Assembly: GCA_035656635.1 (NCBI GenBank)
Contig: DASRSD010000137.1
Coordinates: forward strand, 1-62,392
Direction of reading: 5' to 3'
Source of the DNA: Pirellulales bacterium
GTDB taxonomy: Bacteria > Planctomycetota > Planctomycetia > Pirellulales > JADZDJ01
Length of the DNA stretch: 62,392 nucleotides
In this document: in pieces, positions 5,009 to 43,625 of the stretch
Layout: each line of letters starts with the position of its first letter
Position numbering within the stretch: position 1 is the stretch's first letter
Position numbers and translations under genes: made by a program
The notes under the pieces: model-generated
Told to the model about the DNA's origin: nothing
What the model saw: the letters and a program-made list of their open reading frames with translations, nothing else
Databases searched by the model: none

Positions 5009-7210
5009 TTACCGCACGGTCATGTCGGAGCTTAAGCCACCGGCGGCGGGCAAGTAGCAGTGGGTGACGTAATCGGCCACCATGCGGTGCGAGCTGAATC
5101 GCCACGCCAGCGAGCTAATGCTGTTCATCATCCGCTGAATCCAATGGTGCGGCAAACCGTCGGCATCTCGGTCGTAAAACAGCGGAATGACTTCTTGCTC
5201 CAGCACGCGCATTAAATCGAGTGCATCGCGCTGGTCGCCAATTTCATCGGAAACGTGCGTGGTGCCGTGGCCAATGGCAAAGCCGTTTTTGCCGTCGTAC
5301 GCTTCCGCCCACCAACCGTCCAGAATCGACAGGTTTAGGGCTCCATTCAAAACCGCCTTTTGACCGCTGGTGCCAGAAGCTTCCAAGGGCCGCCGCGGAT
5401 TGTTCAGCCATACATCGACCCCCTGCACCAAATGCCGGGCGACGTTAATATCGTAATCTTCCAGGTACACAATGCGGCCGGCAAAGCGTGGATCGTGCCG
5501 CAGGTTAGCGGTATTGCGAATCAGCCGCTTGCCGGGTTCATCTGCCGGGTGGGCTTTGCCGGCGAAAATCAGTTGAATCGGCCGCTGTGGATCGTTAATC
5601 AGCGCCGCCAATCGGTCCGCATCCTGCATGATTAAATCGGCCCGTTTGTAGGTGGCGAAGCGGCGCGCAAAGCCAATCGTTAGCACGTTGGGGTCAAGCA
5701 AATTGCGGGCCTGCTCCACGGCTTCATCACTTTCGCCGCGGCGGCGGCACTGGCGGCTTACTCGACGGCGAACAAATTGGAGCAGCAAATTTTTCAAGGC
5801 GTAATGCGTTTCCCACAGTTCGCCGGGATCGCAGCGATGTATTTCCTGCCACACTTCCGGCTTGCCCATGTGCCGCATCCAATCGGCCACGAACATCCGG
5901 TCGTAAAGCTGCTGCATTTGCCAGGCCAACCAACTGGGCACGTGCACGCCGTTGGTGATATGGCCAATGGGGATTTCTTCCTCCACCCGCCACGGCCACA
6001 GGTGAGCCCACATGCGGCGCGAAACATGGCCGTGCAAAGCGCTTACAGCATTGGCTCGGCGCGAAAGCTTGAGGCCCAGCACCGTCATGCAAAAACTTTC
6101 CCCTTCATTGTGCGGCTCCACGCGGCCCAGGCCCATGAGCTGCTGCAAGGAAATGCCCAGCATGTCGCGGGTGGGGCCCAAGTGTTCTTCAATCAGCCCG
6201 GCGTCGAAGCGATCGTGCCCTGCCGGCACCGGCGTGTGCGTGGTGAACACGGTGTGTTGGGCCACCTCGCGCAACGAGTCGTCAAAGCTTTGTCCGTCGT
6301 CGTGCATGCGCTCCCGAATGGCTTCCAACGTGGCGAACACGCTGTGGCCTTCGTTCAAATGATACACGCCCGGATAAATGCCCAGGGCCCGCAGCGCTTT
6401 CACGCCGCCGACGCCCAAAATCAACTCCTGGCGAACGCGCGTGCGATGATCTCCGCCATACAGTCGGCTGGTTAATTCGCGATCTTCCGGCTTGTTGCCG
6501 TCGACGTCGCAATCCAGCAAATATAAATCGACACGCCCCACGCGCATCAACCACAGCTTGGCAAACAGCGGCCCGGTGCGCGTATCGACCCGTACGGTAA
6601 TCGGCCGGCCATCGACCCCCAGCGCCGGCTCCATGGGCACGTTTTCCACCTTCGTGTCGAGATATTCCTCGTGCTGGTATCCTTCAATATCCAAATGCTG
6701 CTTGAAATAGCCTTGATCGTAGAACAACCCCAACGCAATCAAGGGAACGCCCAGGCCGCTGGCGCTTTTAATATGATCGCCCGACAGCACGCCCAGGCCG
6801 CCGGAGTAAATCGGCACCGATTCGTGAATGCCAAATTCGGCCGAAAAATACGCCACGGGCTTGGAACCCAACACGCCGGCATGCGTGGTGCCCCACATGG
6901 TCCGCGGGCCAATGTATTCCTTGAGCCGCCGATAGGATTGATTAATGCGGCTATACAGCACCAGTTCCGCGGCGCGCATTTCCAATCGCTCCGGCGTAAA
7001 CTCCGCCAACAGCGCAATGGGGTTGTGATCCAGCTGCCGCCAGCGAATGGGATCTAAATCCCGAAATAAATTAATGACGTCCGGATGCCACGTCCACCAC
7101 AAGTTGCGAGCAATCGCCAGACACTTGTCGTAAATTGATTGCGGCGAAAATTCCGCCAGGTTAGGCTTTTTCGCGGGGGCGGCAATTGTTTCTACCTCAA
7201 GTTGGCTCAT
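5009..7210 (-). CDS. glgP: Alpha-glucan (glycogen) phosphorylase
   Basis: A 733-residue protein of the bacterial/archaeal alpha-glucan phosphorylase group. It opens with the DUF3417-type segment (CLAIARNLWWTWHPDVINLF), then YFSAEFGIHESVPIYSGGLGVLSGD, and a C-terminal EASGTSGQKAVLNGALNLS carrying the Lys that binds pyridoxal phosphate; the family Met in TSGMK is Gln here. It releases glucose 1-phosphate from storage glucan with inorganic phosphate. The start at 7210 (MSQLEVET) is preferred over 7267 because an AAAGGAA ribosome binding site lies just upstream. Its 3' tail is duplicated at 4021-4060. Confidence 0.92.
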   Translation of the reverse strand: MSQLEVETIAAPAKKPNLAEFSPQSIYDKCLAIARNLWWTWHPDVINLFRDLDPIRWRQLDHNPIALLAEFTPERLEMRAAELVLYSRINQSYRRLKEYIGPRTMWGTTHAGVLGSKPVAYFSAEFGIHESVPIYSGGLGVLSGDHIKSASGLGVPLIALGLFYDQGYFKQHLDIEGYQHEEYLDTKVENVPMEPALGVDGRPITVRVDTRTGPLFAKLWLMRVGRVDLYLLDCDVDGNKPEDRELTSRLYGGDHRTRVRQELILGVGGVKALRALGIYPGVYHLNEGHSVFATLEAIRERMHDDGQSFDDSLREVAQHTVFTTHTPVPAGHDRFDAGLIEEHLGPTRDMLGISLQQLMGLGRVEPHNEGESFCMTVLGLKLSRRANAVSALHGHVSRRMWAHLWPWRVEEEIPIGHITNGVHVPSWLAWQMQQLYDRMFVADWMRHMGKPEVWQEIHRCDPGELWETHYALKNLLLQFVRRRVSRQCRRRGESDEAVEQARNLLDPNVLTIGFARRFATYKRADLIMQDADRLAALINDPQRPIQLIFAGKAHPADEPGKRLIRNTANLRHDPRFAGRIVYLEDYDINVARHLVQGVDVWLNNPRRPLEASGTSGQKAVLNGALNLSILDGWWAEAYDGKNGFAIGHGTTHVSDEIGDQRDALDLMRVLEQEVIPLFYDRDADGLPHHWIQRMMNSISSLAWRFSSHRMVADYVTHCYLPAAGGLSSDMTVR

Positions 7211-41806: not shown

Positions 41807-42397
41807 TCAAGCGGAATCGCTAGGTTGTAGGGCATGCTGTTTATCGCAGCGGTCCGATTCGGCACAGGCCTGCCGCCAGGCGCCCAGCCAGGTATTAAGA
41901 AAGCTGCCGAACAACAGGCCGCCGAACGCGCCCAGCACGCCCGACGAAACGGCGCCCAATAGAATGCCCCGCAACGGCACCGTGGTGGAATTGACCAAAA
42001 TCCACTGTCCAAGCCAGCTGCCAATTACGGTGCCCGTAAAGGTGGAGGCCAAAATCACCCAGCCCAAGGGAGTTCGCTGCGAAAGGCGAGAGACCGAGTG
42101 CGAACCGTCCAAACGCACCGGTACCGGCACGGAAAACGGTTCTCCTTGCATTGTCGTTTCATTGGCGGCTGACAACTGCGAAGCCTCATCACGCAACGAA
42201 GTGCCCAGCGCATTTCCCGCCACGTGCAGTCCAACCAGCACGAGCACGACCGACAGTCCGCAGGAAGCCAACGGGCCAATCGCCCCGCAAATGGCAAATA
42301 AAATCGCCAAGATGCTTACCGCCCAAAACATCGTCCGCAAAGAAAACTGCGGCGATATTGACCGAGCCGGCGGTTCAATCGCGGTGGGAAGGCTCAT
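41807..42397 (-). CDS. Hypothetical membrane protein
   Basis: A 196-residue protein; the start at 42397 (MSLPTAIEPPARSIS) is chosen since the upstream codons read into a MITE-like flank. Four hydrophobic segments are visible: MFWAVSILAILFAICGAIGP, ASCGLSVVLVLVGLHVAGNA, a Gly-rich one at about 120-145 (WVILASTFTGTVIGSWLGQW) and PLRGILLGAVSSGVLGAFGG. The N-terminus IEPPARSISPQFSLRTMFWA matches a short motif found ahead of membrane segments in many planctomycete proteins of unknown function. No family is assigned. Confidence 0.6.
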   Translation of the reverse strand: MSLPTAIEPPARSISPQFSLRTMFWAVSILAILFAICGAIGPLASCGLSVVLVLVGLHVAGNALGTSLRDEASQLSAANETTMQGEPFSVPVPVRLDGSHSVSRLSQRTPLGWVILASTFTGTVIGSWLGQWILVNSTTVPLRGILLGAVSSGVLGAFGGLLFGSFLNTWLGAWRQACAESDRCDKQHALQPSDSA

Positions 42398-42447
42398 GCC
42401 CGATATTATAGAACCCGGTTCCCAAAAGAACCAACAGCGCCGCATTC

Positions 42448-42572
42448 AGGTCGTCGCCTAATTTGGCCGCTCAGCGATGTAGCGACGACTATCCTCAGCC
42501 GTTTTTGTTCGAGAAAACCGCCGGCGTCTAGGGACAGACGCCGCTCCATTTCTTCAAATTAGGCGACGACCT
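42448..42572. mobile_element. MITE-like element with perfect terminal repeats and 6-bp target duplication
   Basis: A 125-bp segment. Its 17-bp ends AGGTCGTCGCCTAATTT (42448-42464) and AAATTAGGCGACGACCT (42556-42572) are perfect inverted repeats. GCATTC flanks it directly on both sides (42442-42447 and 42573-42578), as a target-site duplication would. The interior has no ORF. It lies just beyond the upstream end of the membrane-protein gene at 42397. Confidence 0.75.
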
Positions 42573-42643
42573 GCATTCAAAGCGATCGATGCCATGTGCT
42601 TGCGGAGGATGAGCCGCTAATAACGTGGAGGCCCGGCGGCGCA

Positions 42644-42677
42644 TAAAAAAACCCGCCGAGGCAAATCTGCCGGCGGG
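42644..42677 (-). terminator. Rho-independent terminator of a small transcript
   Basis: On the minus strand the stem CCCGCCG / CGGCGGG encloses a 12-base loop and is followed by seven T residues (A run at 42645-42651). It is the clearest intrinsic terminator I see in the window, and there is no long gene immediately upstream of it, only the 9-codon ORF at 42760-42789. Confidence 0.75.
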
Positions 42678-42759
42678 CTGCCGTATCTATACGGCGAAGA
42701 AAAAAGTTCATTGGAAAATTCGCTGAAAACTGCTGAGAAATTGCCCACGCAACAATTCC

Positions 42760-42789
42760 TCATGCCAGTCGGCCCGGTGGATTCAACAT
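42760..42789 (-). CDS. Nine-codon ORF with a strong ribosome binding site
   Basis: The reverse strand has AGGAGG (42797-42802), 7 bases, then an ATG and the codons for MLNPPGRLA and a TGA. It sits in a predicted transcript bounded by a good promoter (42869-42898) and the terminator at 42644-42677. It could be a leader-type peptide, a small protein gene or merely part of a small RNA. The next gene on the strand (42397) lies beyond the terminator, so it could be an attenuation target only if the terminator is read through. Confidence 0.4.
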   Translation of the reverse strand: MLNPPGRLA

Positions 42790-42868
42790 GACAGGCCCTC
42801 CTATGTGCAAGTGACGAAAAAACGATTGAAAACGGGCGAATTCGGACCAGCGCTCAAGCACTGAAATC

Positions 42869-42898
42869 TTGTTATCAAAAATCGCCCCCAATTGTCAA
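42869..42898 (-). promoter_or_regulatory. Promoter of the small transcript
   Basis: On the minus strand a perfect -35 TTGACA (42893-42898) is followed after 18 bp by TAACAA (42869-42874), or after 17 bp by ATAACA. Transcription would start near 42862 and run about 215 nt to the terminator. Confidence 0.6.
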
Positions 42899-42902
42899 CG
42901 GT

Positions 42903-43625
42903 TTTTTCGCGCGGATCTAAATCCATTCTATATTTTTTCTAATTGGCATTCGCTTTGAATCGCTTGTACCGAATGCGCGGATCGGCAAAAGCGAAAATGG
43001 AATCGGCGACGAAATGTCTCAAAAACATAGCCGTATTCTCTCATTTCGAGACGTTGGCTTTAAGCTGGGCAGACTTTCCATTCCGGCTTCTTTTGGCTGT
43101 CGGAGGCAATAAATTCCCGATCTCCATAAACAAGCATGAGTTATAGCGAACACGAAATTTCGTCGTGCCACTTTGGTATAGACGTTGCTAAAGAGCTACA
43201 TGCCCAGTGAGTTAATTCAATTGCTTCCGAACGTTTTACAGCACGAGGGAAAAGAGCCTACAGCAAAAAACACCGCAAAAAACCGAGCCAAGGCCGTAGA
43301 TCAATTGCCAGGCTTGTGAATGGTTGACCAGCCGCAGATAGCACTGATTTTACGGAGGATTTGACTGCGAAAAAAAATATAGGAAACCGGGAACAGTACG
43401 CGGGGGAACATGAGGAAGAGGCTTGACCCGGGCGTGGAAGGTTTCGCAGCTCAGTGACTGCAGCTCTTGATTACAACCTTCGCGTCCTGGCTTTCCAGGG
43501 GGCGGCCGCGGTGCCAGCCGGGCCGCCCCCGATATTTTTTCAGCATTTCCTTTTCGGCATGTTTGTTCTTCTCTGACGCACGCGGCAGGTTAAAAACCAC
43601 AGCTATTTCGAGAGGGGGCAATCCC
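42903..43625. other. Intergenic region upstream of the sigma factor gene
   Basis: No credible gene. A 67-codon frame at 42943-43146 lacks a ribosome binding site and looks random. Phrases such as AGGAAACCGGGAACAGTACG near 43381 recall the ACCAGGAAACC repeat of the GxxExxY flanks. The final part (43440-43625) is open in frame with the sigma factor, but a GAGGGGG site before 43626 argues that it is untranslated leader. Confidence 0.45.

Follow-up and report, generated by a model that had tools for sequence, protein, structure and literature searches.

Within the window (the whole 62,392-nt stretch of Pirellulales DNA analyzed here), the minus strand between positions 42898 and 42645 carries in close succession a putative promoter, a Shine-Dalgarno (SD) sequence, a micro-ORF, two hairpins (the first set at the ORF's stop codon, the second one small) and an intrinsic terminator. 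We consider it very probable that this unit represents a conserved RNA with an ORF. Comparison of its relatives brings out a predicted terminator, a strong SD, a start codon, the motif [DE]-Pro-Pro-[G/D] at codons 3-6 and a covarying hairpin, together with promoter-like sequence in some members. That the unit is a free-standing small RNA gene whose 5′ part acts as a ribosome-pausing module seems to us an evenly balanced proposition. The initial annotation had offered three readings of this region, two of which were a small regulatory RNA and a micropeptide gene; at the level of sequence both are supported, the one by a conserved stand-alone unit and the other by an ORF constrained as protein, and the comparisons support the view that the two belong together.

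Parts of the unit in the window and their counterparts in two relatives (G001, same genus; G002, same family, second genus)
Feature	Positions	Strand	Remarks
-35 element, TTGACA	42893..42898	-	Corresponding sites: TTGACA (G001), TTGACT (G002)
-10 element, GATAAC	42871..42876	-	Spacer 16 nt; matches TATAAT at 4/6; GATACC in G001, GATAGG in G002
Leader block, TCACTTGCACA	42804..42814	-	Identical copy in G001, none seen in G002
Shine-Dalgarno, AGGAGG	42797..42802	-	7 nt ahead of ATG; often GGAGGG in the family
9-codon ORF, MLNPPGRLA*, ATG...TGA	42760..42789	-	Family consensus M-[QL]-[DE]-P-P-[GD]-x-x-x*
12-bp hairpin, 5′ arm opening with the stop codon UGA	42734..42762	-	28 nt from the A of AUG
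Small hairpin, GCCGUAUAGAUACGGC, just ahead of the terminator	42680..42695	-	GCCG...CGGC retained in G001 and G002
Intrinsic terminator, stem and 7 T	42645..42677	-	Counterparts in G001 and G002

The promoter, the SD site, the ORF and the terminator were all found where the initial annotation had put them, with the qualification that the -10 it had called good is a four-of-six match. A consensus scan of the window listed neither the promoter nor the terminator of the unit, presumably because GATAAC lacks the final T that the scan demands and because the terminator stem is interrupted. The initial annotation had overlooked the stop-codon hairpin, which turned out to be key to the family, and also the small hairpin just ahead of the terminator. 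The predicted transcript is about 220 nt long. By itself the unit in the window has no statistical distinction, and conservation is what raises it above chance: its -35/-10 score is unremarkable alone (reached by 7% of 40 base shuffles), and the 223-nt transcript folds with a z of -1.25. From SD to terminator the fold has a z of -2.79 in the window (0/200 shuffles equal it), -1.78 in G001 and -1.36 in G002. About 140-150 bp upstream of the unit's -35 lies a palindrome, TCTCGAAATGAGA (43039-43051), which G001 keeps and whose counterpart in G002 is TCTCATTTTGAGA; it is a possible candidate for a regulator site.

When the region of the unit was compared by BLAST with 40 genomes, its own counted among them, the sole clear match outside its own genome was in G001, with 71% identity spanning the -35 to the terminator and an ORF reading MTDPPGRLA. 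The match in G002 is weak (E 0.78) and lies near the corresponding sigma gene; the unit there has the ORF MSVPPGLQA, still of nine codons, a stop-codon hairpin, a GCCG...CGGC hairpin and a terminator. In the window and in both relatives the unit lies on the upstream side of a sigma-70 gene and points away from it, an extra ORF lying between the two in G002. The next gene downstream on the unit's strand in G002 encodes an HU-type DNA-binding protein (PF00216), which replaces the membrane protein of the other two. Conservation of ORF and stem in relatives, a check that the initial annotation had proposed, is thus seen in both genomes and extends across the order. A second conserved element occurs on the plus strand upstream of the sigma gene (43313-43540; 83% identity to G001 across 230 bp). 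It closes with a hairpin rich in G+C followed by a run of T (GATATTTTTTC), has a fold z of -3.46 in the window and -1.04 in G001, and gave no match at E≤0.001 in 38 other genomes and none in Rfam; possibly it is another small RNA, or the leader of the sigma gene.

A covariance model built from the window, G001 and G002 sequences (R2) matched at least 39 of 296 genomes at E≤0.05. We read 19 of these places and found a common core in 14, GGAGGGCAA-x-C-AUG-CAA-GAU-CCA-CCG-GGx or near variants, followed mostly by three free codons and then by UGA at the hairpin base; L064, L066, L067, L069 and L071 were judged non-members. A scan of named genomes gave 12 matches, 10 of them with planctomycete titles, including Pirellula sp. 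PB1.007 (L082, L086 and L091 duplicate L098, L094 and L095, respectively). Both matches outside the Planctomycetes, in Desulfamplus and Maritimibacter, were judged to be chance: the Desulfamplus MAG (L081) matches the ORF exactly with no hairpin seen. L088, whose frame has a stop at codon 2, was set aside as chance, and L080 as probably so. At E≤0.001, a model of the core made from 20 sequences (R3) matched at least 46 of the order's 396 genomes; these belong to 13 of the 20 labelled families and have up to three matches each. We read the R2 and R3 scan counts as lower bounds, since no more than 10-13 candidates in each genome were scored by the first-look filters. A mobile repeat was rejected, there being no more than three R3 matches per genome at E≤0.001.

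Across the phylum, R3 matched at least 27 of 392 genomes at E≤0.01. Sixteen of the 30 phylum rows were read, and they yielded one convincing member beyond the order, in G471 of another class (L113), with the ORF MWDPPGLYF, a UAA stop and an AU-rich stem at the stop (UAAUAUAUG/CAUAUAUUA). A pattern describing the ORF alone found 23 matches in 22 of the 396 genomes, and the reversed pattern used as a control found none; L150, L151 and L161 look like chance and were retained (3 of the 23) in the count of hairpin distances below. The exact ORF pattern gave 0 matches in viral_contigs, and a virus origin was rejected. Rfam 15 gave nothing at the gathering threshold at the unit, whether that of the window or those of 20 further loci, and its only matches elsewhere within those loci were one RNase P and one tRNA; across window positions 42440-43600 there was nothing even at E≤5. 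For the counts that follow we assembled 56 loci, namely all 52 R3 rows of the order scan, weak rows in G069 and G296 included, to which L113 and three loci of the named scan (L085, L087 and L089) were added.

The family core reads GGAGGG-AUG-[Q/L]-[D/E]-Pro-Pro-[G/D], and codons 3-6 are both conserved and constrained at the level of protein. In 12 R2 matches, departures from GAU CCA CCG GG number 0, 1 and 10 at codon positions 1, 2 and 3 (P 1.9e-5); with three more R2 matches (G034b, G126 and the second G144 copy) they number 0, 3 and 13 (P 1.1e-5). Across the 56 loci, codon 5 is CCG in 32, CCA in 11, CCU in 7, CCC in 3 and another codon in 3. Residue 3 is acidic in 52 (Asp in 48, Glu in 4) and residue 6 is Gly in 35 and Asp in 8; [DE]PP occurs in 49 and the full [DE]PP[GD] in 37, and residues 7-9 vary freely. 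The acidic residue is not universal, since codon 3 is Asn in the window and Val in G002, and a PPG-specific arrest is not the whole story, since 13 of the 56 loci have something other than Gly or Asp as residue 6, and Pro-Pro, present in 53, is absent in 3. In 38 loci the frame first stops at codon 10, which is also where the stem starts; in the remaining 18 the frame has no stop there and ends after 7 to 66 codons.

In an alignment of 20 sequences the stop-codon stem is paired in 83.5% of cells and has 29 double changes, as against 14.1±2.9 in shuffles, and its covariation score of 0.403 (vs 0.228) is reached by 0 of 500 shuffles; in the first alignment, of the window, G001 and G002 sequences, covariation was not above shuffles. 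Taken individually, the stop-codon hairpins of 17 of 27 members were reached by no more than 3 of 60 shuffles and 10 of 27 members fail this test, the weakest being L157 and L158, in which the ORF is present with no stop-codon hairpin. We defined the start of the hairpin by the strongest uninterrupted helix; scoring by total energy joined hairpins and gave no clear start. This helix begins at nt 27-29 in 38 of the 56 loci, vs 5% in shuffles, and in loci lacking the codon-10 stop it is mostly still 26-29 nt from the A of AUG. In three of the latter, L201 (G082), L181 (G126) and L211 (G197), the frame traverses the hairpin and the distance is retained. Loci found with R3 are biased to this hairpin position by construction, and because R3 itself contains the hairpin the ORF-only matches are the fair test of the distance: among the 23, helices begin at 26-29 nt in 14, where 1.47 would be expected (P 9e-12), with uninterrupted stems of 6-13 bp. 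Since the distance holds both without a codon-10 stop and in matches found by ORF alone, the stem would be placed relative to the start and PP codons, and its position seems to be set by these and not by the stop alone. Sequestration of the SD by the 3′ arm of the hairpin was rejected as a specific feature (own -11.4 vs swapped -11.6).

The surroundings of the unit support a free-standing gene with its own terminator, the promoter being less certain. For a count of neighbors we took, at 23 loci, the nearest downstream mechanical ORF of at least 90 aa; several of these frames are spurious, among them that of G002, which is antisense to the HU gene, and the 23 include L107 (14 codons), which is not among the 56. 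This ORF lies on the opposite strand in 14 of the 23. Nine of the 14 were compared with Pfam and seven matched (those of L083, L090, L097, L098, L102, L104 and L107; L092 and L100 did not), all to different families: NOV_C, AP_endonuc_2, ILVD_EDD, Maf, glycosyl transferase, response regulator and H_PPase. Neighbors are common only to two or three related loci, save for one promiscuous family at scattered distances. The window and G001 have the same membrane-protein gene downstream on the same strand; its product (gene at 42397) has no Pfam match, and by eye the gene has its own TTGGTY-N18-TATAAT in both genomes. In the window, a repeat element (42444-42576) lies between the unit's terminator and this gene. 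The element is about 123-133 bp long with 22-nt inverted ends that are 95% complementary, has 28 matches in the genome including itself, and was not seen at the G001 locus; it is evidently an inserted MITE-like repeat.

A strict scan placed a terminator within 200 nt in 12 of 27 members, where 0.7 would be expected, and by eye we found one in 13 more, several of them beyond 200 nt. Those found by eye lie about 90-113 nt past the stop in L109, L092 and L102, and 248-304 nt past it in L095, L103, L106, L084, L144, L085, L087 and L090; in L105 (379 nt) and L159 (302 nt) they lie beyond further modules. In most members the predicted terminator ends about 80 to 300 nt past the stop of the first ORF. 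L105 (reverse strand, downstream of position 6015) and L159 contain, by eye, two or three copies of the SD-DPP ORF-hairpin module followed by one terminator, with MLDPPYE and MLDPPHVVGGR among the further ORFs. In L085, L087 and L090 the body of the RNA is about 280 nt long and highly conserved up to the terminator, with no evident ORF common to the three. A longer conserved ORF in long-bodied members was rejected, inspection by eye having shown no common frame among seven loci. Most members have an undistinguished promoter score: in only 9 of 27 was the best -35/-10 equalled by no more than 10% of 40 base shuffles.

These observations bear unequally on the other ways in which the unit might be read. 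The third suggestion of the initial annotation, an attenuation leader for the membrane protein gene, is a case of ribosome-mediated attenuation of transcription into a downstream gene. A leader ORF that overlaps a hairpin and is followed by a terminator has the right layout, and the window and G001 do share the gene; G002, however, has no relative of it downstream, downstream genes in general are common to close relatives only, and in seven loci the nearest gene is Pfam-supported and on the opposite strand. Nor did we detect antiterminator complementarity: in 14 members with hand-placed arms, the hairpin 3′ arm paired with its own terminator arm at -6.18 kcal/mol and with swapped arms at -6.11, and its own pairing beat the swapped mean in 7 of the 14. 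Synteny already contradicts this reading, which we find hardly credible. An ordinary trans-acting small RNA, base-pairing through its body or linker and protected by the ORF and hairpin as a 5′ stability cassette, would account for free-standing units with terminators and for the conserved 280-nt body of L085, L087 and L090. It is nevertheless unlikely, given that linker and body, unlike the ORF-hairpin module, have no visible conservation between families, that the module is repeated in L105 and L159, and that the window's genome (assembly 95.6% complete) has no match to Hfq.

Two further readings turn on the ORF itself. Were the nine-residue micropeptide the product, as a signal or effector, with the hairpin and terminator merely protecting the 3′ end of a tiny mRNA, one would expect the strong SD, the protein-level constraint on codons 3-6 and the length of nine residues kept in 38 of the 56 loci. 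Yet residues 7-9 vary freely, the 18 frames that end elsewhere mostly leave the hairpin distance unchanged, and a hairpin placed by distance is left unexplained, so that we regard a micropeptide product as distinctly improbable. At the other extreme, the core might be an RNA-level motif, bound by protein or acting as antisense, that merely resembles an ORF. Its nearly constant GAUCCACCGGG is complementary, with one G-U pair, to the coding sequence of the sigma-70 TWWI motif (recognized by eye), but the clustering of changes at third codon positions makes such a motif very unlikely, and several of these changes (CCC, CCU) would disrupt the pairing with sigma; antisense action on sigma genes was rejected on these grounds. 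In L118, L120, L126 and L127 the model matches the antisense of apparent sigma-70 TWWI codons, because GAUCCACC is the reverse complement of GGTGGATC; we take this as coincidence.

We therefore return to the pausing module, in which ORF and hairpin would work together. Ribosomes would initiate efficiently on the micro-ORF and then slow at Asp-Pro-Pro-Gly/Asp, a motif that so soon after the start would be hard to translate, in a manner that may be EF-P-dependent or prone to drop-off; the latter would follow from a nascent chain of such shortness and acidity. Depending on context, some PPG motifs cause EF-P-dependent pausing, as seen in EF-P mutants, and in E. coli most PPX motifs do not need EF-P (PMC4140641); short Pro-Pro peptidyl-tRNAs are described as liable to drop off (PMC8934632). 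Among the proteins of the window's genome is one with the C-terminal domain of EF-P (PF09285). At the step after the slow motif the ribosome would meet the hairpin at its mRNA entry channel. When Pro5 occupies the P site, a stem that begins at nt 28 stands at +16; once codon 6 has moved in, it stands at +13. The ribosome would therefore face two obstacles in immediate succession; that the +13 position goes with codon 6, and not with Pro5, in the P site counts against the mechanism. Ribosomes are reported to pause at hairpins that have stems of about 11-12 bp and lie 11-12 nt beyond the P-site codon, a first base at +12/+13 from that codon hindering A-site tRNA binding and translocation (PMC7282821; PMC8861025). 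The paused or dropping ribosome may then set the melting of the hairpin and the exposure or stability of the remaining RNA, so that the RNA would report the state of translation (EF-P, Mg2+ or ribosome stability). We give this coupling of RNA folding or stability to translation, which we infer from the arrangement of the parts, slightly less than an even chance.

Several known systems resemble the planctomycete RNA in part. SgrS is a dual-function small RNA. Such RNAs, of which Spot 42 is another (PMC10339803), are likewise free-standing small transcripts with a short ORF; the planctomycete family differs in that its ORF has only nine codons and is tied by distance to a hairpin. The MgtL leader peptide of enterobacterial mgtA is also encoded by a very short ORF with acidic and proline residues first, and the folding of its RNA responds to translation (PMC11282234). 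Its early EPDP motif is reported to destabilize ribosomes and lead to their drop-off (PMC11282234), so that early drop-off or pausing has been demonstrated for MgtL and is proposed here. An early acidic/proline motif of this sort is found in 49 of the 56 loci, the window itself having Asn-Pro-Pro. MgtL, in contrast, is encoded in the 5′ leader of its own target gene, whereas the planctomycete RNA ends at its own terminator with no apparent target in cis; no conserved downstream gene was found that would speak for cis control of a Mg2+ transporter gene. The pausing hairpin of dnaX frameshifting (PMC7282821; PMC8861025) offers a third likeness, in that 6-13 uninterrupted pairs would stand at the entry channel; with codon 6 in the P site, they would lie some 12 nt beyond that codon. 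Here, unlike dnaX, there is no downstream coding frame to reach and, by eye, no conserved slippery sequence, and a frameshift signal was rejected for want of the latter.

Among the literature matches listed, no paper was devoted by title to planctomycete small RNAs, the one candidate being the Rhodopirellula-1 motif (Weinberg 2010; PMC2864571). The table in that source describes it as a candidate RNA of Planctomycetes, ambiguous as an RNA and probably cis-regulatory, also lists it for Proteobacteria and gives no Rfam number; the motif was compared with our family by this table entry only, and overlap is possible. With that proviso, the family is apparently undescribed in the literature searched and in Rfam. 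Judged by its sequence, the family is new within a familiar general kind, small RNAs with a short ORF, and has an unusual architecture. To our knowledge it would be the first free-standing RNA organized around a proline-type pause combined with a hairpin ruler. It is conceivable, if doubtful, that these low-copy RNAs constitute a new class of free-standing "ribosome-parking" RNAs, in which [DE]PP[GD] and a hairpin at fixed distance hold or eject the ribosome at codons 5-6 and give a readout in trans of EF-P activity, Mg2+ or ribosome integrity.

The family supplies a defined, conserved and testable RNA gene in the planctomycetes. If the proposed mechanism is true, a pause confined to nine codons would lend itself to dissection, and these bacteria would possess a natural sensor of EF-P or of ribosome stability that is detached from the gene it controls.
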